Part shown: piece by piece, positions 29,149 through 64,000 of the stretch
Numbering within the stretch: the stretch's first letter is position 1
Layout: each line of letters starts with the position of its first letter
From: Astrocystis sublimbata
Lineage: Eukaryota; Ascomycota; Sordariomycetes; Xylariales; Xylariaceae
DNA: 64,000 nucleotides
Assembly (NCBI GenBank): GCA_022453515.1
Contig: JAJNNY010000081.1
Location: 62,001-126,000, forward strand
Direction of reading: 5' to 3'
Notes under the pieces: model-generated
Database searches by the model: none
What the model was told of the DNA's origin: nothing
The model's input: only the letters and a program-made list of their open reading frames with translations
Made by a program: the position numbers and the translations under genes

Positions 29149-29749
29149 AGAGGCTTGACGAGCAAATTGCAGGATCTTCGACAGTGCAGCGAGAAGTGTT
29201 GAAGTGGTTTTAGGTCAAGGGGTCACTACACTGTCACGGGCTCATTATGTACATAAGAAGGTCCTTCCCATCTCTCATCTTTCCATAGATTCTAGTCACT
29301 CAACTGAATAGTACGCTCATATATCTCATACTTCACTAAGAAGTTGTTATTCAAAACTACATTTTTAACAAATGAGGTACATAATAATCAAAATTAAAGG
29401 TTTCTTATAGCTCGGTCTACTTGGCGCTTTTTATCTCTGTCATACTGTATTTTGTAGTGGGTTAGCCTACTCCTGTGTTGCGGGAGTTGCTTAATTGTAG
29501 AAGCCCCCATTAATTTCTACAACACCCCGGACTTCTAACTGTGAAAAACAGTAGAGCAATATATAGGTAATGTCTATATTCATAGAAAGTTGTAAAAGCA
29601 GAAAGATCCCAAGAGCTCCGTGGGAGTCTACATTCATTCTTTCGAGGGATGTGAAATGAATCAACTACCCCTATTTCGACACATGCGTATGTAAAACAGC
29701 AGCTTCCTTGTCCTCTTTATCATGGATATTCTAAACAGTGGATTCTACC
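29149..29749. other. spacer crossing the left limit of the visible inverted repeat
   Basis: No gene. The base pairing with the window end (64000) is 29523; whether the repeat begins there or further left cannot be seen. Confidence 0.5.
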
Positions 29750-31486
29750 TCACAAACCGAGGAGTTCGTTTCTCTTGGCCTCTCCATCTATCTTTGCTTG
29801 CGCAATTGCTTCTTTCGTGTCTTGTGTGCGAGGTACAAAAGCGACCTTGAACGGCTTTGCTTGCAACACAGTTGACGGAAGATAACCCGATGAGGGGTTC
29901 GTATCTAATGTGTCGGTGGGCTTGATATCAAATGCCCACAAAATGAGAGCGAAAACAATTTTGATGTTTTGATAGAAATAATCTTTGCCGAGGCATTCTC
30001 TGGATCCCATGCCGAATGAATATGTGGCTTTCCTGTGGGGCTGCGAAACACCAGGTTTGGCACCAACTGGATCCTTGAGCCAGCGCTCTGGTTTGAAGGA
30101 TGAGGGGTCGTCATAGAACTTTTCGTCGTGTGCGATAGACCACTGGTTGATTACGACGGTGGTCCCTTTGGGAATGTGGTAGCCCGAGACAATCATATCC
30201 TCTGTCGTCTCGCGTGGAAGCCCAAAGGGCCCAAAGACATAGGAACTGAGAGGTCGCCACCGTAGCACCTCCATAACGCAGGCACTGAGATAAGGCATTC
30301 TCTCGATTCTGATATGTTCCGGGAGGGCCAAAGGGCTGCCACCATCCTGGGCGAAGACGCTCTCTATCTCATCCTGTACTTTACCCTGAACTTCGGGGTG
30401 GCTTGCTAGTGCCTGAACCAGGTTGTTGACACTCATGACGGTGGATGTCCAGGTGGCGTCACTTAACGTGTAAGCGCGTGTTCATATGAGGAAGAAATAC
30501 AAAAGCATAACCAGAAGAATGGAGAAACATACAATAAACCGCCGATGAACACATTGACTTCATCATCGGTAAAGTTAACTGATGGATCGGCCGCTTGTGC
30601 TAGAACTTTCGACGAGAATGGCGTCATGGAGCCTTTTCTTCCACTTCTGCCCGCGTCCATCACGGGTTTCCAAGTATCAAGCAGGGCTTGGCGTGTGACC
30701 TTAGCTTTGCGTTTGTTCTCGGAAAGAAGCCAGGGCACCCAACGCAGGACGGGAAAAATGTCAGCCCTTGGTGACTGGTCCGGGTCAAGATAACCAAGAA
30801 ACATTCTTTGTGCAGCTTGATACCGCCGAATCCAATCTTCACCTAGATCCTGAGGCCTAACTCCAGCCATGAACCAGGTCGGTGTAGATAAGGACCTATA
30901 CAAACGCGTGAGCCAGATGAGTCCATTAGTCTTAGCTTCGCTATACATACCAATCCAAGACTTTCTGAAACCACTCATCACCAGCGTCGACCAGATTATC
31001 TAGAAGTCGCGTGCCGGCGACTTTCTGCATGGGTCCCAGCTTCAGGAGGCCCGCGCCAGTGATGTACTCCTTTCCCATCGTCCGTAACATTTTACTTTCT
31101 CTCGGAGGTGATAGTAAACTGTACGGCTTCCATAGATCTGGTAATACATGTCTTTGGGCCATGTAGACCTCTGGTCTAGCATTCACGAGCGCAGACCTTT
31201 TGACCAGGAACTCGTGTACAAGCTCAGCGTTGTTGACTATTACCATGTTTTTGGTGCCAATCTTGAGGCCCGTGATGGCACCGTACTCCTGGGCCCATTC
31301 ATGGACCTTAGTAAAGTTGTAGGCCGCTGGAATTTGGTGAAAGTTTCCCAAGCCTAGCCTGGTAGGAGGACCAGGGGGGAAGTTCGGTGGGCGCCGCGTA
31401 GCACGAAGCCATCGTACTATCAGAATGAAGAGGATCGGGAGGCCAACTCCTATGAAAGATGTGACTATGAGATTGTAAAGGGCCAT
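29750..31486 (-). CDS. cytochrome P450 A (left copy)
   Basis: Exons 31486-30951, 30895-30533 and 30461-29750 give 536 residues. N-terminal membrane anchor (residues 5-26) followed by the proline-rich hinge PPNFPPGPP. ExxR is E364-V-L-R367 and the heme-binding loop is FGMGSRECLG with Cys456. The I-helix reads GGLFDATWTST instead of the usual A/G-G-x-D/E-T-T, so the acid-alcohol pair that delivers protons is altered. ER-bound monooxygenase of the CYP620/OrdA-like open-chain type; in these clusters P450s hydroxylate or couple phenolic units, but the reaction here is unknown. Divergent from P450 B at 32376. An identical copy lies at 62037-63773. Confidence 0.85.
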
Positions 31487-32375
31487 TTTCTAACAGAATC
31501 TTTCAAAACAACCAGAAATATTCAACATACTCTGCATTATACGCTGCAACTCCTGAAACTAGTTAAGAAACAACTTCGATATTTAGAGGCTTGCGCCAGT
31601 TCCATGATCACCTGATTTTGTTTTCCCACTCCGAGTTGTTACATGATTTCTTTCTATGCTCTAGTAAAATAAGGCGAGTTGGCCCGCGTAGCTTGATTGT
31701 CATCAAAGGCCGATAGTGTGTACGAAGATAACCAGGCCTGGCTCGGAAGGGATCGAACCAACCGAGACTCGATAGTCCTATATTCCCGAGCAGACACATT
31801 TTACCAGCCACTGCTGATTCTGGTTTTGTTTCGTGAGCTCGGACTCCGCACCCCTCTCAGTAATACCCCGATTTGGTGTAGTTGATTATGGCATGATGAG
31901 CAGTTCACTGAGACTTGGATACGGATCGCGCGATTAGAACCCCGAATCACCCACTGTCCTGCATTTTGGTGGCTGTGGGTCATGCATAGCTAGAATCTTT
32001 TTCAGATATGACAATTTCTACAGTAGACTATGACGCGGGTTGCTGGCTGTGATGTAAGCGCTCACGTCAGCGACCACAGAAGCTACGATTACTTGTTTCG
32101 ACTGTTACTTCTTCATGTGCGCAGTGTTTGGCCCCGCACAATTTGGCAGCGTCGCGGTGCTACAGCGCACTCTCGCATGTTCCGGCTGACCTTGACTCGT
32201 AGAACTTCTCACCTGCCAACTTCAATGTTGAGTTATTACGGAACGTCACTTAAACCACTTGTGTCGAACTTTATCTGGGCACGTCAATCTTGGCTGATAC
32301 AAGTTCACTGATCCAGTAGCCCGAGTAACCATTTTTCCGCTAAACATCCTCGCCAAAAAGCTTCCCCAATTCGCC
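31487..32375. promoter_or_regulatory. divergent promoter between the two P450 genes (left)
   Basis: About 890 bp. TCGGACTCCG at 31839-31848 is identical to the ten bases at 13562-13571 upstream of the SnoaL-like gene. No other gene recognised. Mirror copy at 61148-62036. Confidence 0.4.
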
Positions 32376-34182
32376 ATGTACAGCTCTGGTAACATCCAGT
32401 ATGCATTGATTGCCAACGCCATCGTGCTGGCACTGATTGTAGTACGGCCCCTTATTACCCTCCCTGACTTGTGTACCTATATATGTGGCGCTAATTGGTT
32501 TCAAGTGGATTTATAACGTGTTCAGGAGTCCCATAGCAAAGTTTCCAGGGCCGTGGTACACCATTCTGACGGACGCCATTATTCAATACACCACTGTCAA
32601 AGGAACCAAGATATTATACGTGAACAAACTCCACGAAAAATATGGTAAGCGTCATGATTGCTTGGGCGATCCGAGCTCTGCTCCAGGTAGCTGATGGTCA
32701 ATTTCAGGACCTATAGTCCGCATAAGTCCCCAGGAGCTCAGCCTTCGGGACCCGAGCGTGACACGCAAGGTATACAGCGTGAAGGGCGAGTTTCCAAAGG
32801 CAGAATTCTACGACAGGCTCTTGAATGGCACACCAAACGTATTCAGCACACGTGATATCGACGTCCACAGGCACTACAGAAGGCTCCTTTCATCAGGGCT
32901 TGCGGAGTCCAGCTTGTCAACACACTTGCCGATAATTGAGAGCAAGCTTCAACTAGCGATTGAGCGGATGAGCGATGAGGCCCATAGGCGTGGTGCAACT
33001 GTCAGTGTCTTGAACCGACTTGAAAGACGGGATTCTAACCGTGGGACAGGACGTGTTTCATTGGTTTCTTGCCATGGCCACAGATGTGATTGGCGAACTG
33101 AGCTTCGGTCAGGGGTTCCAGATGCTGGAAACGGGAGAGGTTCGAATTTTGGAGATCCCCGAAGAGTGTTTGTCGCTTACTTGAGTTTACAGAAAAACCA
33201 ATACATACGTGATCTCGAAACGGTTAATAAGCTCGGCGGTATCCGTGTGACCTTCCCGTTTCTCGTCCAGCTAGGGCACTATATTTACATCCCCTTCATC
33301 AAAGCGGCAAATGAGCATCGTCGTCGTACAGTGAAGTACGCCGAGCAGTCTATTGCACGTCACTACCGCATTGTAGAGGAGGAAGGCGAAAGCGCCAAAC
33401 CAACACTGCTTTCAAAATTGTATAAAGCCGGCGACGATGGTATGGCCTTTGATGAAGTTAGATCAAACGCGATGGGGTATGTCATTGCAGGGTCTGACAC
33501 AACAGTACGTCTTGACTTTCGATTGTTGTTGAAACCAGATAAGTAGAAGCTAAGTCTATCGACACAGGCTAATACACTGACCTATACTATATGGTCTGTG
33601 TGTAAACATCCGGAAGTCAAAGCGAGATTATTAGAGGAACTTCAGAAACTTCCTGATCCATATGACTATACAAATGTAAAGTCACTGGACTATCTCAACC
33701 TCGTTATCGAAGAGGTCCTACGGCTATATCCCGCTGCGCCCGCTGGACTTCCGCGTGACGTGCCAGCTGGAGGCACGGAAATTCTTGGGTATCATATTCC
33801 CGCAGGCTACACTGTCAGTATTGGAGCTTATAACATGCACCGCAATTCAGCTGTTTTTGCAAATCCTGAGACGTTCGATCCCTTGCGCTGGGAGAATCCG
33901 ACAAAGAATATGAAGGAAGCATTCGTGCCCTTCGGGGGTGGCAGCCGTGGTAAGCTTATCATACACTGTTAAATATGTCTTGACTTCTCTGACCAGGAAG
34001 TAGTTTGTCTGGGAATCCATCTCGCTCGTATGGAGCTCCGCATGGCTACAGCTATCTTCTTTCGGACTTTTCCAAACGCCAAAGTCTCACCTGCAGAGGG
34101 CTTCTGCGACGAAGACATGGAACCAGAAATGTTCTTCCTTTTAGGGCCAAAGTCAAAGCGATGCTTGATCGATCTATTCTAA
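32376..34182 (+). CDS. cytochrome P450 B, seven exons (left copy)
   Basis: Exons 32376-32438, 32506-32644, 32708-33000, 33050-33139, 33193-33504, 33568-33949 and 34004-34182 give about 485 residues. Splice sites were chosen to keep P450 motifs in frame: hydrophobic N-terminus MYSSGNIQYALIANAIVLAL, FPGPWY, DVFHWFLAMATDVIGELSFG (C helix region), I-helix AGSDTT at about 294-299, EEVLR (ExxR), and heme loop FGGGSRVCLG with Cys428. The fourth donor (GTTCGA) and the last acceptor (after GAAGTAG) are non-consensus and least certain. Class E fungal monooxygenase with a standard oxygen-activating I-helix, unlike its neighbour P450 A. Identical copy at 59341-61147. Confidence 0.8.
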
Positions 34183-34636
34183 GATGGGTAGACCATTTGT
34201 CTCGAGTTCCTAGAGTTAACCGTAAGACTGTCGAGATTTAGTCGAATTGTAACATGAAACGTATAAACGTCACTCTTCATTGTACCCAAGCTAGCTACAC
34301 ACGTGAGAAGTGCATGTGAAGTGGCGTGCTGGTCATTCTCTCCACTATCTCGCTTCATGACTGCTAGATATTACAACTCAATTCAGCTTATTCTCTCTAC
34401 TATCTGGTCTATGCCATGATCTAATACCCAATTTTCTCACTTTCCTCGTGTCAAAGCAGTTAGAATGAACTGCCCTCCAAAGGCCAGACTTAAAGTCTAG
34501 ATTGTCAATTTCAAGGTTCAAGTATCGTGATTTATTTGGCACCAAAATCATCACATGTATGAGCTTTAGCCACGAGTTTTAGGGATATTTGGCAATCCGT
34601 AAGCCGCTACTGCGACTTCCTCAGATGCACAAACGC
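34183..34636. other. convergent 3' spacer
   Basis: Between stops of P450 B (+) and the EthD gene (-); AT-rich, no gene. Confidence 0.5.
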
Positions 34637-35199
34637 TTAATCAAACTCTAGTCCGTTGACAGGCTTCCCATCTTTGATCCATTCCTCGATCCAGCCGATA
34701 GTCATTCTAACTTGAGTTAACCAGCTACTTTGTCAAAGGATATAAGATAAAACCGTGTTTACTTACTTGCTCCTCTTAGTATCTGCAAACTTTTCATGGT
34801 CTCCAATCAAATGCTCCTTGTACCAAGGATCCTGCTTGATCCGTTTGTAGTCTTCTAGACTCTCAAACACGACTTGACTGAAGCAATCAAAGTCGGCAAC
34901 CACTGTCATCTGAGGATCGAAAAGCTCTGACATCAACGAGCGTGTAGCTTCAGGGTTATGGATCTTCATTCCATGTCAATGGTTGTGACAAGTCAAGTAT
35001 ACACATGGTCGCTTACCATCGTCCATCTTTTGATGCCATATTTCGCCATCAGATCCTTCGTCATTGGTACAGATACCTGAGTCATGTGGTATCTATAGTC
35101 TTCTTCGCTCATTCCGGGCTTACGATAGCCGCAAATCGTCAAACACAAGTATTTGCATGGCTCTAAGCCTGGGGGGGACTTGGGCGGGATCTGTGACAT
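34637..35199 (-). CDS. EthD-domain decarboxylase (left copy)
   Basis: Exons 35199-35017, 34963-34767 and 34706-34637 give about 149 residues. An EthD/dimeric alpha-beta barrel protein: [20 protein letters not shown] near the N-terminus, then [20 protein letters not shown] and the C-terminal [11 protein letters not shown]. In related clusters (AgnL1, GedI, N-terminal half of MdpH) this protein removes the carboxyl of atrochrysone carboxylic acid after release from the PKS. Here it is a separate gene next to the thioesterase and PKS, matching that order of action. A TCGN5CGG site lies 346 bp upstream of the start. Identical copy at 58324-58886. Confidence 0.85.
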
Positions 35200-35544
35200 G
35201 GCTGTCCAATCGAGTAAAGTTATTTGAGATGGAATCGAGTAAGATGGTTGCGCTAATGCGCATAATTGTTTATTTTTTTCTTGTATGTTGTTCGAATTAT
35301 TTTAGAGTCAGACTATACGCATGATGTCAAATCTGCTTGTTACGAAAGCCGTTCCCCATACGAGTTGTTGATGCCGATGAAACTTCTTAGTTAAACGTGA
35401 GCTCTATTTGGCGCGAGAATCTCGGTCTTTTCGACTCAATCTTCCGTGCCCCAAGCCCGATAAGTATCGTACTAGAGGGGTGTTATGTTAGTGCTCAATC
35501 CCCAAAGTGTTAAACGGCCTTACATCATCGCCGACGATACCTCT

Positions 35545-35555
35545 TCGGACTTCGG
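35545..35555 (+). promoter_or_regulatory. exact AflR-type consensus TCGN5CGG
   Basis: TCG-GACTT-CGG, formed by two tandem TTCGGAC units at 35544-35557, lies 346 bp upstream of the EthD start. It fits the published AflR consensus TCGN5CGR. Mirror copy at 57968-57978. Confidence 0.5.
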
Positions 35556-35997
35556 ACCAATCTTATACATAATATTTTTCATGTGACACATAGTAAGGCG
35601 ACCGAGACTAATGTTTTTGTAAAAATGCATCGGTCTAATTGATGCAGTGTTCTCACCCACATCCCAGCCCCACCAAGAGAAAAGTATATTCCTCCGAACT
35701 GCTGGCCCCGCAGGTCTATAAGCATCAAGACAGCCCAGATTTCATGCACGATTCCTCGAAACCCCTAGCTATGGCGCATGATAAGCGGCAAGAAAATGAG
35801 TGCTGGATATGGTATATACCGACAATGTGAAATAGCTATAGAAGAGAAAAAGAGTGTGTGCGCTAGAAAGGCCCGGGGATGGCTGCGAAGGTGGGTGATA
35901 GTGCTAAGCACCTATAACAATGGCTAGGTAATACTATTCTATCAGAAGAAAGCATAGCTTGCAAGTCGAACAGTAATTACCACCTTGAACTCGATAT

Positions 35998-36175
35998 TAG
36001 GGTTTACAGACCCGGCCCATCTCTTGGCGGCCTACGGCCCAAGTGAGCCCATGGGTACCCAAACTAAATACTTGGCATAGGCTTGGCAACTACCCACGGC
36101 CCATGGGCTTTTTTTAGGGGTTTTAAAAAACCCGTGGGCTAGGACGTAAGGGGCCCAAGCATACAGCGTCTCAGG
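35998..36175. mobile_element. relic of the hAT-like element family
   Basis: Begins TAGGGTTTACAGACCCGGCC, close to the ends of the fold-back element at the palindrome axis, and shares the block CCCACGGCCCATGG (36093-36106) followed by T- and A-runs. No matching opposite end was found, so it looks truncated. Family assignment is tentative. Mirror at 57348-57525. Confidence 0.45.
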
Positions 36176-36327
36176 TGTTCTCCCCTAATATTGTAAGAAT
36201 TTTAGATGAGGCGGTAGGTCTATATTGAAATTCTGTCTAATGGGCAAAAGGAAGCTCTCCAGAAAGTCCATACCCTAGCGGATGGCATGCAGCTATCTAG
36301 TGGTCGGAGGACATTTACAGCACGACT

Positions 36328-37331
36328 CTAAAGAGCGGCAATAGCAAACCATTTCTTCTCACCAGCTCTAATCTCAAAGGCCACTTTATCATCCTCAGTC
36401 AACTTCCTTAATACCTCGTCAATGAACGGTTCCAGTGCCTGCTCTCTCATCTGCTGGTCCGTCTCGCCATACATCTCCGTGACCAGGCTCTTGACAGTCA
36501 CGCTGCCTTTCCCACGTTGCTCCTTCTTTATGCGATTCAATGTCTGTAGAACCTGTCTCTCGCGTCTTTCCTTTGACTCGAGCTCCCCCGATATCTTGGC
36601 GTTGAGGTCGGGGATGACTTCACCATGGGCGGGATATCCCCTACCACAATTGTGCGATTGCATCAGACGCAAGGTCCCCATCCAGAGACTTAAGACCTCT
36701 ACTGCCGCCGTCCCGTGACCGAGAACATTGTCGCCGGTAAACATGGCATTTTCTTCTTCGATAATAAAGCACATGTGATCGTGCGAATGGCCAGGGGCGT
36801 GCACCGCTCGAACGGTGGCCCCTTCGACTTTGAAAATCTGACCATCTGTTATGGCCTGTTGTCCCTTGCCAGGAGTGTGTTTGTATATACGGTTCGGGAG
36901 GCTCGGGTAGAGACGAAGGAGGTCGGGCACTCCGCCGGTATGGTCCCCGTGCCAATGCGACAGCAGCACAGCTGAAATGGTCACAGCAGAGTCGGCCAGA
37001 ACCGAAGATATCAAGTCTGCCCAATCAGGGATTCCTTGACCGGTATCAATGAGGAGTCTCTGTTTCCCTGTGCCTATGATATACGTATTCGTACCCTGAA
37101 GTGTGAACTGTGGTCAAGTGATCAGTTTCTATAGAGGAAACTAAGAATTGAGTTCCGCGAATGATTTCTTACCTTTCCTGGATTTTGGCCCAGGATGCGG
37201 ACAACACGAGGACTTAGTTGGGCTACATCGTCGAGGGGTGGAAGGCTTCTCTGTTGACCATCGAGGTAATCTTCGAAGGCGCAGATATTCAACGCTTTGT
37301 TGATTTGGCGATAGCCCCCCTCTCCAACCAT
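36328..37331 (-). CDS. metallo-beta-lactamase thioesterase, ACTE type (left copy)
   Basis: Exons 37331-37173 and 37107-36328 with a 65-bp phase-0 intron give 312 residues (318 from the Met at 37349). Metal-binding motif SHWHGDHTGG at about residue 95 (HxHxDH), further ligands in HAPGHSHDH and TGDNVLGHG, so a di-zinc hydrolase. The N-terminus GGYRQINKALNICAFEDYL and the QGTNTYIIGTG stretch are typical of the discrete thioesterases (MdpF, GedB, AgnL7) that release the chain from TE-less NR-PKSs, yielding atrochrysone carboxylic acid. It is divergent from the PKS at 37869, the standard pairing. Identical copy at 56192-57195. Confidence 0.9.
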
Positions 37332-37868
37332 TTCGAAGTGTCTACTCAAAGAATCTGCTCAAGGAAGAGCGCCTGGAGAAAATATGCGCGGGTAATTGGA
37401 GAGGTATGCAGGGAGCCTAGGTTTTTCAGTGTTGTGTTAGACGTATATGTCAGACCCGCGGTTGCGCACTAGGTTATAGCTACCGCTATTATGTCTTCTG
37501 TTCCCTTTTGGGTGCCCGGTCTTGTGCATACACTGCGTGTTATTCCCTCTGGTAACGCGTCATTTCGGATCCGGGTGGTGAGAATCGGGTCAGAGTGGAT
37601 TGCTCACATCGCGCCGAGGAGTCAGCTCTCTCGGTTGATTACCACCCTTGTCTGTTTCATGGCTTACTTGAAGTGAGAATGTTATCCCAGTGAGATGAAG
37701 TGGCCGACGGCTGTTTGCAGACGGCTCGGAAAAGAGCCGCAAACACAGGGGCCATTGTTCCTCTGTTAGATTTATTAAATACTCATAACTTACATCAAAC
37801 AATATTTCGCACTTCAAGAGTTTTATTTGCTTGCAGTACAGACTATCTACTTCAGTCCTATCTTCAAT
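37332..37868. promoter_or_regulatory. divergent promoter between thioesterase and PKS (left)
   Basis: 537 bp. Contains TCGGATCCGG at about 37564 (palindromic CGGATCCG) and a perfect 6-bp inverted repeat CGGCTC/GAGCCG around a 6-base loop at about 37721-37738. No exact TCGN5CGR noticed. Mirror at 55655-56191. Confidence 0.45.
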
Positions 37869-40800
37869 ATGTCAGCCCAATCCGGCACAAGTTGGGTCTC
37901 CCTGAAAACACCCGGGGAACCACCAAGAATCACATTAGGGTATTTCAGCAATGAGTTCCCTTCTGATGACTTGAGTGGCCTTTTTCGGCAGATATTGAGT
38001 CACAGCAAGTCGAGACAACACTCGATTCTCAGTCGATTTATCGACGAAGCAACTTTGGCTGTCCGGGAGGAGATACGCAAACTTCCAAACGAGACACGAG
38101 CATTGATCCCAGTATTCAAAACCATTTTTGACTTCGCAGGACATGCCGAGTTGAGAACCGGCCCTCTGTGTGGCTCTATAGATGGAATTCTGCTCTGCGC
38201 CTTTGAGATCGCCACTTTCATCGGGTATGTGATTCCCACCATCGTCAAGACAAGGATACTTACATGCATTCAAAGATACCACGAAACATCTGATCGTCAG
38301 TTTTGTCCTGCCTCACCAAGCTACTGTCTTGCTGGTTTGGGAATTGGCTTGGTAGCAGCCGCTGCAATCTCCACTTCCCCAAGTATTGCAGACCTCCCCC
38401 TCGCAGGAGCGGAGGCTGTTCGTATCGCATTCCGTCTCGGTGTCCTTGTCAACAACGTTTCCCAGAACTTACAGCCGCCTGATTCCTCATCTACCGGGAA
38501 GCCTGACTCGTGGGCCTATGTCGTTCCCGACGTGGCACCGGTAGATGTTCAGAAAGAGCTAGATGAGCTACACACACGAGAGGTGAGTCATCGTATGGTG
38601 TAGCAACAAAGGGGTACAAGTACTAACAGAATATTAGCCATGTGCCATCTCTAGCGAAATATTCATCAGTGCTCTGAGCAGGACATCCGTTACAATAAGT
38701 GGTCCACCGAACAGATTGAAGAGCCTCCTTCGTCTTTCTGATTTCTTCAGGGATCGAAAACTGGTGAGTTTGCCAGTCTATGGCGGGTTATGCCATGCAC
38801 GACACGTCTATGATGAGACGCACGTGCACGAGGTTGTCGGACGGAGCGTGCTCGACAATTTGGGCAAAGGATACTCCCCAACCATCCGACTCTTCTCCAC
38901 GAGTACGGGGGAACCGTTTTGTGCCACGACAGTGACCGATCTCTTTGAGGAAGTCGTCACTGAGATATTGACCCAGAAAATCGAGTGGGACAATGTCATC
39001 AATCGAATCGTTCACTGTGCGAAAGATTCAGGGACAACCGAAGCGGAAGTGCTTGTCTTTCGAAACTCATTACCGGTGCATGAGCTCCTGAAGGCCTTGG
39101 ATGCCAGTGGGGCCGATTCCCGAACTACCACAGTGGACTTGATGCATTGGATTTCCCAGAGCAACAACAGCCTGCCTGGTCCTCGGGGGTCATTGCAATC
39201 CAAAATTGCAATAATTGGCATGTCATGCCGCATGCCCAGTGGCGCAACTGATACCGAGAAATTCTGGGAGCTGTTAGAAAAGGGGCTGGATGTGCACCGA
39301 AAAGTCCCTGCAGATCGTTTCGATGTGGAAACGCATCATGACCCTACCGGCAAAAGAATAAATACCAGCATTACGCCTTACGGTTGTTTTATTGACGAAC
39401 CTGGTCTGTTCGATGCTGGCTTCTTCAATATGAGCCCCCGAGAAGCACAACAGACTGACCCAATGCAGAGGCTCGCCTTGGTGACAGCTCATGAAGCTCT
39501 TGAAAGGGCTGGCTACGTGGCTGACAGGACCGCTGCTACGAACCTACATCGTATCGGTACATTTTACGGTCAGGCGTCAGACGATTATAGGGAGGTCAAC
39601 ACAGCCCAAGAAATCAGCACGTACTTCATTCCCGGGGTTGTCGTGCCTTTGGTCCCGGAAGAATCAATTATTTCTTCAAGTTCTCCGGTCCAAGTTATAG
39701 CATTGATACTGCCTGCTCATCAAGTTTGGCGACGATTCAAGTATGTTAGATCTATTCCGATGCCTGGTTATTTTTCGCTAATACATTCTCATAGGCAGCG
39801 TGTACTTCTTTATGGAATGGAGATACCGACACTGTCGTGGCGGGAGGGATGAACGTTCTTACCAATTCGGACGCTTTCGCCGGGTTAGGAAATGGGCACT
39901 TTCTTTCTAAAACCCCTAACGCCTGCAAAACATGGGATGCAACAGCGGATGGCTACTGTCGCGCTGACGGCATTGGATCCATTGTTATGAAGAGGTAAGC
40001 AGATTTCGGAGCCATCCAACACTAATTATTTCGCTATTATCCTCAATGTAATCGACCGCTATCCGGCTGAGTCTTGAATATGCCCACTGCTTTTCTATAA
40101 GTTCTCTAGACACGGTTTAATACCCTTTTTCATCTGAACATTGACATAACTAACTCCGAATATGATGCAGACTCCAAGACGCCGAGGCCGACAACGACAA
40201 TATTCTCGGCGTGATCCTGGGCGCCGGAACCAATCATTCAGCAGAGGCAGTCTCAATTACGCACCCGCACGCTCCATCGCAAGCCTTTCTTTCCAGGGAG
40301 GTCTTGCGGGATTCCGGGCTCGATCCTCTCGATGTGAGCTTTGTTGAAATGCACGGCACTGGCACGCAGGCAGGCGACTCGGAAGAGATGCAGTCTGTGA
40401 GCGAAGTCTTCGCACCGATCACCAAAAGGCGTAGCAGCAAGAACCCACTGTACATTGGTGCAGTGAAGTCAAATGTTGGCCACGGCGAGGCTGTGGCGGG
40501 GGTCACAGCTTTGATCAAAGTATTGCTGATGTTCGAAAAGGGGGCCATCCCACCCCATGTGGGCATTAAAGACAAGATTAACCCCGGCTTCCCCAGTGAT
40601 CTGGGGAAACGCAACTTGAACATTCCTTACCAAAAGACACCATGGATTCGGAACTCAGAAAGAAGGCGTATTGCAATGGTGAATAACTTCAGCGCGGCTG
40701 GGGGCAACACTACTATAGCGCTTGAAGAGGGACCTATCCATGAAGTTGTTGGGGTGGACACTCGACCGGCGCCTATCATTGCTATCTCCGCTAAAAGCAA

Positions 40801-43713: not shown

Positions 43714-44462
43714 ATGAAAGAGATAAGGGGGCTCACGGGACTCTTTCTGGGAGGATTGGACATATGCGGGCTTGTATAAAGGCTTGCTGTCGTTGGCTCC
43801 GTCAAAATGAAAATAAGAGAGCTGTCTCCTAATTTTCTGTTTCTGGGTTCGAGACTGTCGAGGGGTTGATATCGCTGCATTGACTGAATGCGAGGTTGTG
43901 CCTCATGTTATTCCCTCCGCAATGTAAGCTTTTTCGTGTTTGAAAAGAAGCCAGTTTGCGCCTCATGCGTCTTGAAAGTTAAAACAGTCAAACGTGTACC
44001 CACCATCTCCTCTCTTCCAACCAAGCTCGACTTAAGCAATAACCAAACATGTATACACATACCTAAGTAAAGTTTCGTTCGGTATGTGAGTCGCCATATT
44101 TCATGAGGGGCCATATCTTGCACCACCTGTACTGTGCCTTCCCATTAAGTACTTAATCAGACACGTCGTAGCTAGTACGGATGTCATTCTTCCACTCTAC
44201 ATACTTCAACAACAGACACGCATTGACCCAGATTCACTGCTACTATCACAGGGTCCTAACTAACCTCCCTTAGATAACCTGAAGGTAGTCATAATCTGTG
44301 CCGCCCCATCTCTGCTACGTACTCCGCCTACCTGTGTTTCAATCAGCCTTCGTTAATACTCCCTCTCCTTACCCGCCGGAGCGCCGTCAAATCAATCAAT
44401 ACTCTTCTTCTCTCCACCTGCATACCGTCGATTCACCTCCTACCTTCTTTGGCCCAGCACCC
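43714..44462. other. spacer between PKS and unknown gene (left)
   Basis: Contains PKS 3' flank and the pyrimidine-rich leader (44200-44460) of the next gene. No gene recognised. Mirror at 49060-49808. Confidence 0.5.
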
Positions 44463-45467: not shown

Positions 45468-45485
45468 ACCTGGCCCTCTGGGTTA

Positions 45486-45699
45486 GAATTTGGTGACTAA
45501 TTATTATTATTATTATTCTATTTAACGCCCGGGAAAGGCCCATGAAATGGGGTAGTAATCAGTCGAGGTTCCTTTCCGAAGCCTCCCATAGGGCATAGGG
45601 GCGTGTCTGGCTGTAAGAGCAGCTCCCACATCAGACAAATCTAGCCAACAGGCGCCGTGGTGTTCTCGTAGGGGGTCCCTTCCTGAATTTGGTGACTAA
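45486..45699. repeat. 15-bp direct repeat flanking about 184 bp (left)
   Basis: GAATTTGGTGACTAA occurs at 45486-45500 and 45685-45699. A short TTA microsatellite follows the first copy. Could be a target duplication around a small insertion. Mirror at 47824-48037. Confidence 0.6.
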
Positions 45700-46055
45700 G
45701 GGGGTCTAACAACACATACTTACTATGATAGTTAATATCAGGGTTTTGAAACTCGCTTTAGGGCTTCGATAGCCTATCCTTTCCTTATCCCGAGTGTGAC
45801 TTCTAATTATAGCATATAGCTAACTCACATCCAGTCCACCTCGGGCAACACTCGCTTGCCACTTTCCACTATTACAAATGCGGATAGAGAGGCAACTGCC
45901 ACTAGATATGCAGGCAAAAGCGATGAATATCAAAGGACCGCCTACCAACCGTTAATACCTACATCTAAGGCCAGATGAAGTGGGGCGAGGCAGTCATTTA
46001 ATGCTCATTCCACGGGGCAAGGTAGACGCTTTTTATACGTACGTAGATTATCCAC

Positions 46056-48037: not shown

Positions 48038-48096
48038 TAACCCAGAGGGCCAGGTCTATCTAGTTGATGAGAACGCTCTTTTTTCCCAACCCATCA

Positions 48097-49059: not shown

Positions 49060-49808
49060 GGGTGCTGGGCCAAAGAAGGTAGGAGGTGAATCGACGGTAT
49101 GCAGGTGGAGAGAAGAAGAGTATTGATTGATTTGACGGCGCTCCGGCGGGTAAGGAGAGGGAGTATTAACGAAGGCTGATTGAAACACAGGTAGGCGGAG
49201 TACGTAGCAGAGATGGGGCGGCACAGATTATGACTACCTTCAGGTTATCTAAGGGAGGTTAGTTAGGACCCTGTGATAGTAGCAGTGAATCTGGGTCAAT
49301 GCGTGTCTGTTGTTGAAGTATGTAGAGTGGAAGAATGACATCCGTACTAGCTACGACGTGTCTGATTAAGTACTTAATGGGAAGGCACAGTACAGGTGGT
49401 GCAAGATATGGCCCCTCATGAAATATGGCGACTCACATACCGAACGAAACTTTACTTAGGTATGTGTATACATGTTTGGTTATTGCTTAAGTCGAGCTTG
49501 GTTGGAAGAGAGGAGATGGTGGGTACACGTTTGACTGTTTTAACTTTCAAGACGCATGAGGCGCAAACTGGCTTCTTTTCAAACACGAAAAAGCTTACAT
49601 TGCGGAGGGAATAACATGAGGCACAACCTCGCATTCAGTCAATGCAGCGATATCAACCCCTCGACAGTCTCGAACCCAGAAACAGAAAATTAGGAGACAG
49701 CTCTCTTATTTTCATTTTGACGGAGCCAACGACAGCAAGCCTTTATACAAGCCCGCATATGTCCAATCCTCCCAGAAAGAGTCCCGTGAGCCCCCTTATC
49801 TCTTTCAT

Positions 49809-52800
49809 CTAGCCATAATACTCCAAAAGCCAGGCTCTCAAGTCTCCAACAGTTGGATACTCCAAAAACAGACTACCACTGATAGTGACACCAAGGACCT
49901 CGCGCAGCTTCTCTGCGACGACCAAACTCATCAAGCTGTCAACTCCTACATTGGCAAATGAAACGCCATCTTGGAGCTCAGATGCATCGAGCGCAGTTTC
50001 GGTAGCAATGAGCAGCATTGCTTTCGTTGTGATGCTATCCTCAGGTATTGGTGAGGTTTCCGTCACAGGAACTTCTGTGACTGGCTGTGGTTTTCTCGCT
50101 TCGGGACTAGCGTCGGGCGGCACTGGAACTGATACGACTGTCAATTTGTCTGCTCTGACCTGTGCTACCGGGGGCTGCAAGGCAGGAGCTATTATTGGCC
50201 TTGCATCGGCCGGCTTGTGAGTGGCGGCACCTTTCGTCGAGTCAGGGGCAGAGAAAAAGCGATCGAGCAGGAGTCGTGGGCTTTCGGGCTTGTTAGCATT
50301 ATTCTCCCAACGATGCTTTCCTCGCGGGATTACTTACTACTTGCGGAACTTGATATCTCCCACCTGGCCTATGATAGTGTCGTCCTGGAGGATGTACACA
50401 TCACCCAAAAACACACCGGCGTCTTCGTGTGTCGGTATCATCTTGACGTAGGAACGGTATGTTGATCCTGCCGTCAGGGGCCGGGCAAAGCGCATTGACT
50501 TCCATCCAGGGGTGACGCAGAAGTGCGTTCCCACGTCCATCGCGTCCGAGACATTCATGACGAAGCCGGCCAGATGCGCGACGCTGTCGATGAAATAAGG
50601 AGGCACAGTCCAATGGCCGCTTTTATCCTGGGACAACTTGATGTCGGCATAAGCCTCAAGCTCGTGAAGAACCACGGATTGCATGCCGCGGTACTTGTCG
50701 GCGTAGTCTACAAGGTTACGTGCAAAGAGACCGTACGCCATCTTGCGACTGAACCTGTTGGCTATACCTTGTTCGGCGAGGCGTTGGAGGTCTTGGATGC
50801 GTCCCAGCACGAGATGGGCGGCTGGGGTCCAGGACCCCAGCCACTCTGTCGGGTTGCCATATATGACAGTAGCAGTGGCGAAATGTTCGTCCAGAGTGCC
50901 GTCGACGTCAACGTTGTGCCAAATGACTTGGGCTTCTCTAGAGTTGATGTCGTCGGTCGATATTGATACCTGGATCGTCTGCGGTACATCACGGTTCTTC
51001 TGGGCAACCAACCCCTTGGTCACTTCCAGGTTGGTGATATTAATAGCAATGTCCTTACTTCCCGGCTTTAGTTTTGAGTACAAATACTGGCCAATAGTGT
51101 ACACTATATCCGCATGAATGGACTGTGTGGGACCACGTTAGTTGCCATCTCTAACCTTTAGTATTTTGTTAAATAAAATGTACGTACTGAAGTCACCACA
51201 CCGCAATTGTTCATTTTGTGTCCGTATGCGGCATCGTGGAAGTCCTTTTGCATAAGGTCGGATCGAATCGTGACTGTACCAGCAGAGCCGTTGAAAATTT
51301 CGCTGATAACACGTTGAACGGTCGAGGTACTGATGGGTGACGAAGGTGGGGCACCGCTTGTCTCAAGAACCTGGCTGGCTTTTTCCTTGGCGTAGAAAGT
51401 GTTGCCCTTTGTTAGTGCCCAATCACCATTATATTGGAGCCAGTAAGTCTTATCATTCCAGCTATACGTTGGGAGATCGAGCAGGCGAAGAGCTGGCTCG
51501 AAAGGGCGGTGGTATTCATTCCAGGCGATCGGAACCCCCGCAAGATGCAGGGCACCAAGCGCCTGGACCAATGTCTGCCAGTTGTTCTCGCCCCGACGGA
51601 TTGACGGTGTTGTGACACTAGTCCCCGCGACAATGCTTTTGACGAACCCCATGCACACCGGATGGGGTCCGATCTCAACCCAAGCGGTTGACTTGTCAAT
51701 GAGGGATATCTTTTGCGCAGCCTCGATCCCGGAAACAAAATCAACGGTTTTGCGAGTTGCCTGTCGGACATAGTTGGCGTTGATAGTCTTATCATCGAAA
51801 ACCACTTTACCTAACAAGGGGGAAATCACTGGCAGATTTGGGGCTTGGAAAATAGCACCCGACTTTGAGATCCTTTCAAAATCATCAAGAATCTCATCTG
51901 TCTGTGCTGAATGAAATGCGAAAGCAACATCAAGAGTGAAACACTTGTAGCCGGCCGCCTCGAGAACCTTTGCAAGGGCTTCGACATCTTCCTTGGTCGC
52001 ACTTAGGACTGTGTCTTTCGGCCCATTGATGCAGGCGACTTCGAAATGCATGCCATGACCAGCATCTTGGACCTGAGCTAGCGAGGCACGAACCGCAAGC
52101 ATCTTGTGGCTGCCAACTTGACATTTCTTCTCCAGCATCAAGGCCCTTTGCCCAACTAGGAAAATGGCGTCGCTAGCCGAGAGAACTCCAGCTGTGCAAA
52201 GGGCGGCGTACTCCCCAAGACTGTGCCCGACAACGATGTCAGGCTTGACGCCCAGGGAAGCCCAATATTTGGCCAGCGCAATCTCAACACAGACTAGTGC
52301 TAGCTGTGTAACAAGAGGGCGATGGATATGCTCTTTGGGAAAACTGCCGTCGATTGCCGGAATGAAGGCAGGGTAGCCTTGATTTTGGGCAATTGAGTCT
52401 AGCTGGTCGATCTGCGCTTTGAAATATGGCGATTCTCGGTAGAGTTCTAAGTCCATGCTGTTGTTAGAAGCCCCTTGACCGGTGAAGGCGAAGGCAACAG
52501 ACGGAGGTCCGGTGGCAGGGATCGACTTGTGCGAATCCAACGAGTCAAGCTGGGACAATAGTTGCTTCTTGAGATGTGAAGCGTCTGAGGCTGTGATGGC
52601 CACTCGGTGGTTATAGTGGTGGCGTCTTGCGGTAGTGGTGTATGACAGGTCGGACAGTGAAACATCTGGATGGGCGTCCAGATATGCTAGGAGCCGCTCT
52701 AGATTCCCCTTAAGCGAGTTCTTGCTTTTAGCGGAGATAGCAATGATAGGCGCCGGTCGAGTGTCCACCCCAACAACTTCATGGATAGGTCCCTCTTCAA

Positions 52801-55654
52801 GCGCTATAGTAGTGTTGCCCCCAGCCGCGCTGAAGTTATTCACCATTGCAATACGCCTTCTTTCTGAGTTCCGAATCCATGGTGTCTTTTGGTAAGGAAT
52901 GTTCAAGTTGCGTTTCCCCAGATCACTGGGGAAGCCGGGGTTAATCTTGTCTTTAATGCCCACATGGGGTGGGATGGCCCCCTTTTCGAACATCAGCAAT
53001 ACTTTGATCAAAGCTGTGACCCCCGCCACAGCCTCGCCGTGGCCAACATTTGACTTCACTGCACCAATGTACAGTGGGTTCTTGCTGCTACGCCTTTTGG
53101 TGATCGGTGCGAAGACTTCGCTCACAGACTGCATCTCTTCCGAGTCGCCTGCCTGCGTGCCAGTGCCGTGCATTTCAACAAAGCTCACATCGAGAGGATC
53201 GAGCCCGGAATCCCGCAAGACCTCCCTGGAAAGAAAGGCTTGCGATGGAGCGTGCGGGTGCGTAATTGAGACTGCCTCTGCTGAATGATTGGTTCCGGCG
53301 CCCAGGATCACGCCGAGAATATTGTCGTTGTCGGCCTCGGCGTCTTGGAGTCTGCATCATATTCGGAGTTAGTTATGTCAATGTTCAGATGAAAAAGGGT
53401 ATTAAACCGTGTCTAGAGAACTTATAGAAAAGCAGTGGGCATATTCAAGACTCAGCCGGATAGCGGTCGATTACATTGAGGATAATAGCGAAATAATTAG
53501 TGTTGGATGGCTCCGAAATCTGCTTACCTCTTCATAACAATGGATCCAATGCCGTCAGCGCGACAGTAGCCATCCGCTGTTGCATCCCATGTTTTGCAGG
53601 CGTTAGGGGTTTTAGAAAGAAAGTGCCCATTTCCTAACCCGGCGAAAGCGTCCGAATTGGTAAGAACGTTCATCCCTCCCGCCACGACAGTGTCGGTATC
53701 TCCATTCCATAAAGAAGTACACGCTGCCTATGAGAATGTATTAGCGAAAAATAACCAGGCATCGGAATAGATCTAACATACTTGAATCGTCGCCAAACTT
53801 GATGAGCAGGCAGTATCAATGCTATAACTTGGACCGGAGAACTTGAAGAAATAATTGATTCTTCCGGGACCAAAGGCACGACAACCCCCGGGAATGAAGT
53901 ACGTGCTGATTTCTTGGGCTGTGTTGACCTCCCTATAATCGTCTGACGCCTGACCGTAAAATGTACCGATACGATGTAGGTTCGTAGCAGCGGTCCTGTC
54001 AGCCACGTAGCCAGCCCTTTCAAGAGCTTCATGAGCTGTCACCAAGGCGAGCCTCTGCATTGGGTCAGTCTGTTGTGCTTCTCGGGGGCTCATATTGAAG
54101 AAGCCAGCATCGAACAGACCAGGTTCGTCAATAAAACAACCGTAAGGCGTAATGCTGGTATTTATTCTTTTGCCGGTAGGGTCATGATGCGTTTCCACAT
54201 CGAAACGATCTGCAGGGACTTTTCGGTGCACATCCAGCCCCTTTTCTAACAGCTCCCAGAATTTCTCGGTATCAGTTGCGCCACTGGGCATGCGGCATGA
54301 CATGCCAATTATTGCAATTTTGGATTGCAATGACCCCCGAGGACCAGGCAGGCTGTTGTTGCTCTGGGAAATCCAATGCATCAAGTCCACTGTGGTAGTT
54401 CGGGAATCGGCCCCACTGGCATCCAAGGCCTTCAGGAGCTCATGCACCGGTAATGAGTTTCGAAAGACAAGCACTTCCGCTTCGGTTGTCCCTGAATCTT
54501 TCGCACAGTGAACGATTCGATTGATGACATTGTCCCACTCGATTTTCTGGGTCAATATCTCAGTGACGACTTCCTCAAAGAGATCGGTCACTGTCGTGGC
54601 ACAAAACGGTTCCCCCGTACTCGTGGAGAAGAGTCGGATGGTTGGGGAGTATCCTTTGCCCAAATTGTCGAGCACGCTCCGTCCGACAACCTCGTGCACG
54701 TGCGTCTCATCATAGACGTGTCGTGCATGGCATAACCCGCCATAGACTGGCAAACTCACCAGTTTTCGATCCCTGAAGAAATCAGAAAGACGAAGGAGGC
54801 TCTTCAATCTGTTCGGTGGACCACTTATTGTAACGGATGTCCTGCTCAGAGCACTGATGAATATTTCGCTAGAGATGGCACATGGCTAATATTCTGTTAG
54901 TACTTGTACCCCTTTGTTGCTACACCATACGATGACTCACCTCTCGTGTGTGTAGCTCATCTAGCTCTTTCTGAACATCTACCGGTGCCACGTCGGGAAC
55001 GACATAGGCCCACGAGTCAGGCTTCCCGGTAGATGAGGAATCAGGCGGCTGTAAGTTCTGGGAAACGTTGTTGACAAGGACACCGAGACGGAATGCGATA
55101 CGAACAGCCTCCGCTCCTGCGAGGGGGAGGTCTGCAATACTTGGGGAAGTGGAGATTGCAGCGGCTGCTACCAAGCCAATTCCCAAACCAGCAAGACAGT
55201 AGCTTGGTGAGGCAGGACAAAACTGACGATCAGATGTTTCGTGGTATCTTTGAATGCATGTAAGTATCCTTGTCTTGACGATGGTGGGAATCACATACCC
55301 GATGAAAGTGGCGATCTCAAAGGCGCAGAGCAGAATTCCATCTATAGAGCCACACAGAGGGCCGGTTCTCAACTCGGCATGTCCTGCGAAGTCAAAAATG
55401 GTTTTGAATACTGGGATCAATGCTCGTGTCTCGTTTGGAAGTTTGCGTATCTCCTCCCGGACAGCCAAAGTTGCTTCGTCGATAAATCGACTGAGAATCG
55501 AGTGTTGTCTCGACTTGCTGTGACTCAATATCTGCCGAAAAAGGCCACTCAAGTCATCAGAAGGGAACTCATTGCTGAAATACCCTAATGTGATTCTTGG
55601 TGGTTCCCCGGGTGTTTTCAGGGAGACCCAACTTGTGCCGGATTGGGCTGACAT
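49809..55654 (-). CDS. non-reducing PKS SAT-KS-MAT-PT-ACP, right copy, open frame
   Basis: Exons 55654-54941, 54885-53782, 53727-53528, 53351-51188, 51122-50338 and 50280-49809 give about 1812 residues. SAT domain 1-380, with GLGIG where acyl-selecting SATs have GxCxG. KS 425-860 with DTACSSS (Cys about 595) and late HGTGTQAGD and [13 protein letters not shown] 955-1270 with GHSLGEY (Ser about 1050). PT 1345-1660 with catalytic His in YGHKMNN (about 1384) and Asp in IDSVAH (about 1573). A single ACP with GVDSLM (Ser about 1769). No TE/CLC follows, so a separate thioesterase is needed; it is the divergent gene at 56192. This is the architecture of atrochrysone carboxylic acid synthases (MdpG, GedC, AgnPKS1). 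Exon 3 to 4 is joined by an unusually long 176-bp intron. Left copy is frameshifted. Confidence 0.92.
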
Positions 55655-56191
55655 ATTGAAGATAGGACTGAAGTAGATAGTCTGTACTGCAAGCAAATAA
55701 AACTCTTGAAGTGCGAAATATTGTTTGATGTAAGTTATGAGTATTTAATAAATCTAACAGAGGAACAATGGCCCCTGTGTTTGCGGCTCTTTTCCGAGCC
55801 GTCTGCAAACAGCCGTCGGCCACTTCATCTCACTGGGATAACATTCTCACTTCAAGTAAGCCATGAAACAGACAAGGGTGGTAATCAACCGAGAGAGCTG
55901 ACTCCTCGGCGCGATGTGAGCAATCCACTCTGACCCGATTCTCACCACCCGGATCCGAAATGACGCGTTACCAGAGGGAATAACACGCAGTGTATGCACA
56001 AGACCGGGCACCCAAAAGGGAACAGAAGACATAATAGCGGTAGCTATAACCTAGTGCGCAACCGCGGGTCTGACATATACGTCTAACACAACACTGAAAA
56101 ACCTAGGCTCCCTGCATACCTCTCCAATTACCCGCGCATATTTTCTCCAGGCGCTCTTCCTTGAGCAGATTCTTTGAGTAGACACTTCGAA
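55655..56191. promoter_or_regulatory. divergent promoter between PKS and thioesterase (right)
   Basis: Mirror of 37332-37868, including the CGGATCCG site and the CGGCTC/GAGCCG hairpin (about 55785-55802). Confidence 0.45.
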
Positions 56192-57195
56192 ATGGTTGGA
56201 GAGGGGGGCTATCGCCAAATCAACAAAGCGTTGAATATCTGCGCCTTCGAAGATTACCTCGATGGTCAACAGAGAAGCCTTCCACCCCTCGACGATGTAG
56301 CCCAACTAAGTCCTCGTGTTGTCCGCATCCTGGGCCAAAATCCAGGAAAGGTAAGAAATCATTCGCGGAACTCAATTCTTAGTTTCCTCTATAGAAACTG
56401 ATCACTTGACCACAGTTCACACTTCAGGGTACGAATACGTATATCATAGGCACAGGGAAACAGAGACTCCTCATTGATACCGGTCAAGGAATCCCTGATT
56501 GGGCAGACTTGATATCTTCGGTTCTGGCCGACTCTGCTGTGACCATTTCAGCTGTGCTGCTGTCGCATTGGCACGGGGACCATACCGGCGGAGTGCCCGA
56601 CCTCCTTCGTCTCTACCCGAGCCTCCCGAACCGTATATACAAACACACTCCTGGCAAGGGACAACAGGCCATAACAGATGGTCAGATTTTCAAAGTCGAA
56701 GGGGCCACCGTTCGAGCGGTGCACGCCCCTGGCCATTCGCACGATCACATGTGCTTTATTATCGAAGAAGAAAATGCCATGTTTACCGGCGACAATGTTC
56801 TCGGTCACGGGACGGCGGCAGTAGAGGTCTTAAGTCTCTGGATGGGGACCTTGCGTCTGATGCAATCGCACAATTGTGGTAGGGGATATCCCGCCCATGG
56901 TGAAGTCATCCCCGACCTCAACGCCAAGATATCGGGGGAGCTCGAGTCAAAGGAAAGACGCGAGAGACAGGTTCTACAGACATTGAATCGCATAAAGAAG
57001 GAGCAACGTGGGAAAGGCAGCGTGACTGTCAAGAGCCTGGTCACGGAGATGTATGGCGAGACGGACCAGCAGATGAGAGAGCAGGCACTGGAACCGTTCA
57101 TTGACGAGGTATTAAGGAAGTTGACTGAGGATGATAAAGTGGCCTTTGAGATTAGAGCTGGTGAGAAGAAATGGTTTGCTATTGCCGCTCTTTAG
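56192..57195 (+). CDS. metallo-beta-lactamase thioesterase (right copy)
   Basis: Exons 56192-56350 and 56416-57195; identical to 36328-37331. Motif SHWHGDHTGG present. In-frame Met at 56174 is an alternative start. Two acceptor AGs occur 12 bases apart (56415 and 56427); the first keeps the conserved FTLQGTNTY. Confidence 0.9.
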
Positions 57196-61147: not shown

Positions 61148-62036
61148 GGCGAATTGGGGAAGCTTTTTGGCGAGGATGTTTAGCGGAAAAATGGTTACTC
61201 GGGCTACTGGATCAGTGAACTTGTATCAGCCAAGATTGACGTGCCCAGATAAAGTTCGACACAAGTGGTTTAAGTGACGTTCCGTAATAACTCAACATTG
61301 AAGTTGGCAGGTGAGAAGTTCTACGAGTCAAGGTCAGCCGGAACATGCGAGAGTGCGCTGTAGCACCGCGACGCTGCCAAATTGTGCGGGGCCAAACACT
61401 GCGCACATGAAGAAGTAACAGTCGAAACAAGTAATCGTAGCTTCTGTGGTCGCTGACGTGAGCGCTTACATCACAGCCAGCAACCCGCGTCATAGTCTAC
61501 TGTAGAAATTGTCATATCTGAAAAAGATTCTAGCTATGCATGACCCACAGCCACCAAAATGCAGGACAGTGGGTGATTCGGGGTTCTAATCGCGCGATCC
61601 GTATCCAAGTCTCAGTGAACTGCTCATCATGCCATAATCAACTACACCAAATCGGGGTATTACTGAGAGGGGTGCGGAGTCCGAGCTCACGAAACAAAAC
61701 CAGAATCAGCAGTGGCTGGTAAAATGTGTCTGCTCGGGAATATAGGACTATCGAGTCTCGGTTGGTTCGATCCCTTCCGAGCCAGGCCTGGTTATCTTCG
61801 TACACACTATCGGCCTTTGATGACAATCAAGCTACGCGGGCCAACTCGCCTTATTTTACTAGAGCATAGAAAGAAATCATGTAACAACTCGGAGTGGGAA
61901 AACAAAATCAGGTGATCATGGAACTGGCGCAAGCCTCTAAATATCGAAGTTGTTTCTTAACTAGTTTCAGGAGTTGCAGCGTATAATGCAGAGTATGTTG
62001 AATATTTCTGGTTGTTTTGAAAGATTCTGTTAGAAA
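61148..62036. promoter_or_regulatory. divergent promoter between the two P450 genes (right)
   Basis: Mirror of 31487-32375, including the TCGGACTCCG motif (61675-61684, reverse orientation). Confidence 0.4.
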
Positions 62037-63773
62037 ATGGCCCTTTACAATCTCATAGTCACATCTTTCATAGGAGTTGGCCTCCCGATCCTCTTCATTC
62101 TGATAGTACGATGGCTTCGTGCTACGCGGCGCCCACCGAACTTCCCCCCTGGTCCTCCTACCAGGCTAGGCTTGGGAAACTTTCACCAAATTCCAGCGGC
62201 CTACAACTTTACTAAGGTCCATGAATGGGCCCAGGAGTACGGTGCCATCACGGGCCTCAAGATTGGCACCAAAAACATGGTAATAGTCAACAACGCTGAG
62301 CTTGTACACGAGTTCCTGGTCAAAAGGTCTGCGCTCGTGAATGCTAGACCAGAGGTCTACATGGCCCAAAGACATGTATTACCAGATCTATGGAAGCCGT
62401 ACAGTTTACTATCACCTCCGAGAGAAAGTAAAATGTTACGGACGATGGGAAAGGAGTACATCACTGGCGCGGGCCTCCTGAAGCTGGGACCCATGCAGAA
62501 AGTCGCCGGCACGCGACTTCTAGATAATCTGGTCGACGCTGGTGATGAGTGGTTTCAGAAAGTCTTGGATTGGTATGTATAGCGAAGCTAAGACTAATGG
62601 ACTCATCTGGCTCACGCGTTTGTATAGGTCCTTATCTACACCGACCTGGTTCATGGCTGGAGTTAGGCCTCAGGATCTAGGTGAAGATTGGATTCGGCGG
62701 TATCAAGCTGCACAAAGAATGTTTCTTGGTTATCTTGACCCGGACCAGTCACCAAGGGCTGACATTTTTCCCGTCCTGCGTTGGGTGCCCTGGCTTCTTT
62801 CCGAGAACAAACGCAAAGCTAAGGTCACACGCCAAGCCCTGCTTGATACTTGGAAACCCGTGATGGACGCGGGCAGAAGTGGAAGAAAAGGCTCCATGAC
62901 GCCATTCTCGTCGAAAGTTCTAGCACAAGCGGCCGATCCATCAGTTAACTTTACCGATGATGAAGTCAATGTGTTCATCGGCGGTTTATTGTATGTTTCT
63001 CCATTCTTCTGGTTATGCTTTTGTATTTCTTCCTCATATGAACACGCGCTTACACGTTAAGTGACGCCACCTGGACATCCACCGTCATGAGTGTCAACAA
63101 CCTGGTTCAGGCACTAGCAAGCCACCCCGAAGTTCAGGGTAAAGTACAGGATGAGATAGAGAGCGTCTTCGCCCAGGATGGTGGCAGCCCTTTGGCCCTC
63201 CCGGAACATATCAGAATCGAGAGAATGCCTTATCTCAGTGCCTGCGTTATGGAGGTGCTACGGTGGCGACCTCTCAGTTCCTATGTCTTTGGGCCCTTTG
63301 GGCTTCCACGCGAGACGACAGAGGATATGATTGTCTCGGGCTACCACATTCCCAAAGGGACCACCGTCGTAATCAACCAGTGGTCTATCGCACACGACGA
63401 AAAGTTCTATGACGACCCCTCATCCTTCAAACCAGAGCGCTGGCTCAAGGATCCAGTTGGTGCCAAACCTGGTGTTTCGCAGCCCCACAGGAAAGCCACA
63501 TATTCATTCGGCATGGGATCCAGAGAATGCCTCGGCAAAGATTATTTCTATCAAAACATCAAAATTGTTTTCGCTCTCATTTTGTGGGCATTTGATATCA
63601 AGCCCACCGACACATTAGATACGAACCCCTCATCGGGTTATCTTCCGTCAACTGTGTTGCAAGCAAAGCCGTTCAAGGTCGCTTTTGTACCTCGCACACA
63701 AGACACGAAAGAAGCAATTGCGCAAGCAAAGATAGATGGAGAGGCCAAGAGAAACGAACTCCTCGGTTTGTGA
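62037..63773 (+). CDS. cytochrome P450 A (right copy)
   Basis: Exons 62037-62572, 62628-62990 and 63062-63773; identical to 29750-31486. The downstream 227 bases to the window edge still match the left arm exactly, so the repeat continues beyond. Confidence 0.85.
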
Positions 63774-64000
63774 GGTAGAATCCACTGTTTAGAATATCCA
63801 TGATAAAGAGGACAAGGAAGCTGCTGTTTTACATACGCATGTGTCGAAATAGGGGTAGTTGATTCATTTCACATCCCTCGAAAGAATGAATGTAGACTCC
63901 CACGGAGCTCTTGGGATCTTTCTGCTTTTACAACTTTCTATGAATATAGACATTACCTATATATTGCTCTACTGTTTTTCACAGTTAGAAGTCCGGGGTG

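Follow-up and report, generated by a model that had tools for sequence, protein, structure and literature searches.

A spacer-less palindrome over a polyketide gene cluster of Astrocystis sublimbata is very probably a fold-back artefact

The core of a polyketide gene cluster of Astrocystis sublimbata appears on both arms of a long palindrome within a 64,000-nucleotide stretch, hereafter the window, that corresponds to positions 62,001–126,000 of the 129,385-bp contig JAJNNY010000081.1 (C170). Comparison of this contig with itself and with the rest of the assembly (42,594,959 bases in 189 contigs) led us to conclude that the palindrome is very probably a fold-back artefact of sequencing and assembly. 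The fungus most likely carries the cluster core only once, and the sequence that truly lies to the right of window position 46761 is most likely missing from C170.

Results

A BLAST alignment of C170:42001–129385 against itself returned a single inverted match of 41,254 columns and 99.961% identity, spanning C170:88137–129385 and reaching the final base of the contig. The axis falls between window positions 46761 and 46762 with a spacer of zero, which bears out the spacer-less and nearly perfect palindrome of the original prediction. The arms were said to be at least 17.2 kb long; they measure 20,625 and 20,624 bases, with the left edge at window position 26137, and the palindrome is open-ended because C170 stops inside it. 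Only the left side joins unique sequence and the right flank is absent. Likewise, the proposed pairing of each position x with 93523 − x is free of mismatches over window positions 29523–39637 and is then one base off for roughly 5.8 kb because of insertions or deletions (indels).

When the arms were compared with each other, four columns were found to differ in the first 4 bases next to the axis and three substitutions were seen at 31–36 bp, while the sequence more than 36 bp from the axis contained no substitutions and only four single-base indels over 20.6 kb (arm positions 114, 1364, 7124 and 19105). A real duplication would be expected to show arms diverged by substitution and two distinct unique flanks. 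Beyond 36 bp from the axis no such divergence was observed, though a very young duplication would look alike; the second flank is absent, though a contig that simply ended within a real palindrome would give this picture too.

The axis is embedded in an adenine–thymine-rich (AT-rich) tract. The guanine plus cytosine (GC) fraction of the 100 bases to its left is 0.10, and none of the 66,661 steps of 100 bases on the left side is lower. By the same measure, 11 of 6,393 steps are lower than the axis of C94 and 9 of 10,633 are lower than that of C100, such that the AT-rich axes comprise those of C170, C94, C100 and C182. A telomere at the C170 axis was considered and rejected, as no TTAGGG repeats were visible by eye in the axis sequence; perfect four-unit telomere arrays gave 145 matches in the assembly, with C15, C132, C143 and C156 among the matches listed. 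A sequencing adapter was likewise not apparent by eye in the axis sequence, no search with adapter sequence having been made.

Palindromes of this kind were observed in seven contigs: C170, C42, C94, C96, C100, C132 and C182. C94 (13,122 bases) is palindromic across 12,985 bases, and its arms differ only within 500 bp of the axis. C96 is palindromic over its first 8,524 bases, up to the contig start, with arms that show indels only and no substitutions, and C100 ends in a palindrome of 2,492 bases that is 100% identical and runs to the contig end. The palindrome of C132 has its axis at 277,747 and also runs to the contig end; the comparison covered 9.5 kb around the axis, where the arms match, and the last kilobase, which is 99.9% identical to its mirror. 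Single-base indels are the sole differences between the C132 arms at 3–4.7 kb and in the final kilobase. In a separate observation, the palindrome of C132 adjoins interstitial telomere repeats (C132:273001–283000). The palindrome of C182 was seen at its axis, at one paired probe and at its end only.

These contigs were not all encountered in the same manner. C94 and C132 were chosen on account of paired opposite matches seen in searches, while C96 and C100 came from a blind sample of five small contigs (12.0–14.4 kb) that were read whole, the other three of which (C90, C92 and C98) are not palindromic. The first 10 kb of C102 (1.34 Mb) is not palindromic either. Among twenty contig starts of 600 bases, one showed a loose, AT-rich inverted match of 77% (C41:211–600), possibly another noisy fold, which was not counted. 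Sampling of large contigs consisted of these twenty short starts and that of C102, and no genome-wide rate follows from it.

One of the palindromic contigs, C42 (27,383 bases), matches C170 at 99.8% along its full length and lies wholly within the palindrome. Its axis is noisy for about 180 bases on one side, and the bases beside the turn disagree with those of C170, as if few molecules supported the fold. Farther from the axis, the two contigs differ by only a handful of single-base indels.

For two of the folds, the locus is also present in the assembly in unfolded form. C96 follows C173 to base 45,259 and then turns back along it; the turn occurs at a natural 20-bp palindrome (C173:45240–45259), after which C173 continues into sequence that is not in C96. 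Similarly, C100 turns at about position 82,320 of C182, where the latter reads through into sequence not in C100. C182 has a fold of its own at about 97,701, where the GC fraction of the tract is 0.10, and a second one in its final 480 bases, at the point where C100 turns. These comparisons demonstrate that fold points recur, that one contig can fold twice and that a folded locus can occur unfolded elsewhere in the assembly. Among the five fold points compared in this respect (C170, C94, C132, C96 and C100; the C182 fold at 97,701 was left out), an unfolded version exists for two, C96 and C100, and none was found for the other three. The original prediction had warned that a palindrome of such perfection and with no spacer is what missed-hairpin or template-switch reads produce in an assembly, and the seven palindromic contigs, together with the two folds comparable with an unfolded locus, support this warning.

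The same comparisons bear on whether any folded molecule need be invoked. In a purely computational join, a contig would have been fused by the assembler with its own reverse complement, the junction being an AT-rich tract. Some contigs do stop at such tracts, as 5 of the 20 sampled starts have a GC fraction below 0.3 in the first 100 bp. However, C96 was folded where C173 offers an unbroken path, and indels are scattered between its arms, as expected of sequence that was read separately. We regard this explanation as barely credible.

The three C182 regions involved (81301–83300, 97201–98200 and 112901–113380) give the impression of a single interval with a hairpin at either end.

Hairpin-capped or dumbbell molecules, formed in the living fungus between AT-rich inverted repeats while an intact chromosome was also present, would likewise agree with fold sites that recur (C100 and the end of C182; C42 and C170), with the double fold of C182 and with loci assembled both folded and unfolded. 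The site-specific fold-backs would then reflect real breakage and capping, with the fungus or the harvested mycelium making hairpin-ended DNA mostly at such repeats, and a biosynthetic cluster would be one of the loci concerned. Hairpin-capped extrachromosomal DNA has been proposed as part of a replication model (PMC10766183). Against this, the same signature has been described from library preparation and from whole-genome amplification (PMC12870357; PMC6218980), the C96 fold lies in GC-balanced sequence, at a 20-bp palindrome, and nothing in our data places the folds before DNA extraction. We therefore consider the formation of these hairpins in vivo to be highly improbable.

Coordinates of the arms, the AT-rich tract and the genes are compiled in Table 1. 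Pfam domains were searched on the left arm, and the content of the right arm follows from the identity of the arms. Regarding the gene content proposed originally, the domains of the polyketide synthase (PKS), the metallo-beta-lactamase-type thioesterase and both cytochromes P450 were recovered, whereas the EthD-like exon is weakly supported, its score being just below the cut-off. Source names in the thioesterase search included ptaB, tpcB, AgnL7 and atrochrysone carboxyl ACP thioesterase, and that of the Pestalotiopsis fici match was cut at 'pta'. The open frame of the thioesterase shows 100% identity to an Astrocystis sublimbata protein. In the protein collection searched, three member sequences are represented by the gene of unknown function; presumably they correspond to the copies carried by the artefactual arms and by C42.

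Table 1. Features of the palindrome and of the polyketide gene cluster, in window positions.
Feature	Position	Strand	Basis or remark
Left arm, presumably the genomic copy; adjoins unique sequence to the left	26137..46761	+	Inverted self-match
Right arm (mirror copy), extends past the window to C170:129385, the contig end	46762..64000	-	Self-match
AT-rich tract holding axis 46761/46762	46611..46910	.	100-bp steps of GC 0.09–0.21
Aldo/keto reductase exon, inside left arm	26843..27439	+	PF00248, E 7e-32
Cytochrome P450	29750..31489	-	PF00067; matches in open frames 29750–30481 and 30941–31489
Second cytochrome P450	32695..33972	+	PF00067 match in 33547–33972; adjoining open frame 32695–33546 without Pfam match
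EthD-like exon	34993..35301	-	PF07110, 21.9 bits, just below cut-off of 22
Metallo-beta-lactamase-type thioesterase	36328..37113	-	Best match outside Astrocystis sublimbata: Pestalotiopsis fici PFICI_10825, 85%
Non-reducing PKS: SAT, KS, AT, product template/dehydratase, ACP	37779..43713	+	Domain search
Gene of unknown function	44295..45467	+	No Pfam match; relatives in Xylariaceae, Nemania 57–63%
Gene of unknown function, mirror copy	48097..49227	-	
PKS, mirror copy	49809..55744	-	
Thioesterase, mirror copy	56410..57195	+	
First cytochrome P450, mirror copy	62034..63773	+	

A run of G in the KS exon of the PKS (window position 39638; mirror 53885) differs in length by one base between the arms, and the PKS frame is shifted in the left arm and open in the right; gene calls would therefore differ between the two arms. 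This one-base homopolymer difference looks like a sequencing error.

A halogenase elsewhere in the genome was considered as a hint of the missing half of the cluster. The idea was rejected, since a search of the assembly for the tryptophan-halogenase family at E 0.001 found none.

Two short dispersed repeats were noted in the window, one of about 185 bp (45492–45684) with matches of 90–98% on at least nine contigs, and the other of about 145 bp (29189–29340) with matches of 72–95% on at least 13 contigs. Both look like small mobile elements. The second has paired opposite-strand matches in C56 (1421–1552 and 10234–10366), which were not counted as a fold, and in C1 (1535904–1536036 and 1545120–1545252), which lie about 9 kb apart like those of C56. 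This similarity in spacing suggests that the pairs are the ends of a mobile element, a fold being the alternative.

Discussion

The geometry of the palindrome, its recurrence in other contigs, the two fold points that this assembly also reads through, the AT-rich axis and the lack of substitutions are most readily accommodated by an artefactual fold-back of long DNA molecules, ahead of sequencing or in its course. We infer the following course of events. The chromosome would enter the AT-rich tract from the left, and the long-read assembly would break there. Within the tract, DNA ends or displaced strands may fold back on a short self-complementary stretch and, through snap-back priming, be extended into hairpin molecules, from which long reads would run out and back over the same 20.6 kb. 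If no reads crossed the tract, the assembler could have extended C170 with folded reads and emitted C42 as a second contig from the same fold. AT-rich tracts would offer plenty of short self-complementary stretches, and the assembler would fail across the same tracts.

Several observations weigh against this reading. No unfolded version of the C170 locus was found with a 762-bp probe beside the axis, which defines our copy count and which matches only C170 and C42, twice each; a 19.9-kb probe gave dispersed repeats and weaker matches, not even its source contigs, and is uninformative on further copies. For the folds of C94 and C132, too, the search for an unfolded version found none. By eye, the turning point of C42 is that of C170, and a shared turn could reflect a real palindrome. 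The indel at arm position 7124 separates the left arms of both contigs from both right arms. We treat it as an error because about 112 bp separate it from the end of C42, a region with other deletions, and because the left and right labels are interchangeable between contigs, yet it stays weak evidence for two real, different arms. Furthermore, an AT-rich tract is not common to all folds: the axis of C132 is only moderately AT-rich (171 of 4,645 steps of 100 bases have lower GC) and the C96 fold is GC-balanced (2,628 of 8,394 lower).

The arms of C132 pose a further difficulty. They differ by 154 transitions and two transversions, a single one of which lies more than about 2.5 kb from the axis, and loss of C before A is enriched (69 of the 154 transitions versus 123 of 765 unchanged C, counted at 500–2,600 bp), a pattern that looks like repeat-induced point mutation. 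Not every palindrome in this assembly can therefore be a simple single-molecule fold; C132 could contain reads from other chromosome ends mixed into the consensus, or could be a real, old (subtelomeric) inverted repeat. The published record also offers grounds for caution. One study saw virtually no foldbacks with PacBio HiFi, and in its recent nanopore genomic DNA few fold sites were recurrent (PMC12870357); the high rate seen here would therefore need a particular library or method. Moreover, nanopore base calls are reported to be poor after real inverted junctions as well (PMC7229812), so that noise at an axis does not decide between the readings.

A rival explanation of the C170 palindrome is that the cluster core was really duplicated in inverted orientation, very recently, with the duplication fixed in the isolate and arising, for instance, by breakage-fusion or by replication template switching at the AT-rich tract. 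The turning point shared by C170 and C42 and the result of the 762-bp probe speak for such a duplication, and AT-rich inverted repeats are plausible break sites. It is countered, however, by the absent right flank, by the zero spacer combined with arms that lack substitutions beyond 36 bp over 20.6 kb, and by the occurrence of such palindromes at unrelated loci, with two of these also assembled unfolded. Long spacer-less palindromes are, in addition, unstable in vivo, and the homopolymer difference in the PKS resembles a sequencing error. On balance, such a duplication appears very unlikely. The claim in the original prediction that the cluster core is physically doubled and its dosage raised is accordingly not supported, although it has not been strictly disproved; as an explanation of the palindrome we rejected a dosage-raising duplication on account of the absent flank and the recurrence of the pattern at unrelated loci.

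Reading the palindrome as a fold-back artefact has practical consequences. Taken at face value, C170 would back claims of cluster duplication, of dosage and of inverted gene pairs, while what adjoins the polyketide cluster on its right would in fact be missing, not mirrored. A cheap check is to screen contig ends for palindromes with zero spacer that reach them, and the rest of the assembly for the corresponding loci in unfolded form.

As for known systems, the cluster is similar to fungal polyketide clusters with a separate metallo-beta-lactamase-type thioesterase in that its non-reducing PKS adjoins such a thioesterase; unlike in those clusters, only the part left of the axis is visible here. 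The inverted-duplication junctions of yeast resemble the C170 palindrome in that inverted copies meet at a junction with poor base calls after it, but they had independent short-read support, whereas the C170 palindrome has neither a right flank nor independent support (PMC7229812). Closer parallels are found among foldback reads in long-read data, many of which have no sequence between their halves and some of which recur at one place, and which were attributed to library preparation (PMC12870357). As in our case, their halves map to one place on opposite strands, often with nothing between, and their fold points are recurrent; in contrast to them, the folds described here are in contigs, at a high rate among small ones, with several AT-rich axes and with one natural 20-bp palindrome. 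Whole-genome amplification also yields palindromic chimeric fragments, some of them folded repeatedly (PMC6218980), which is likewise the condition of C182.

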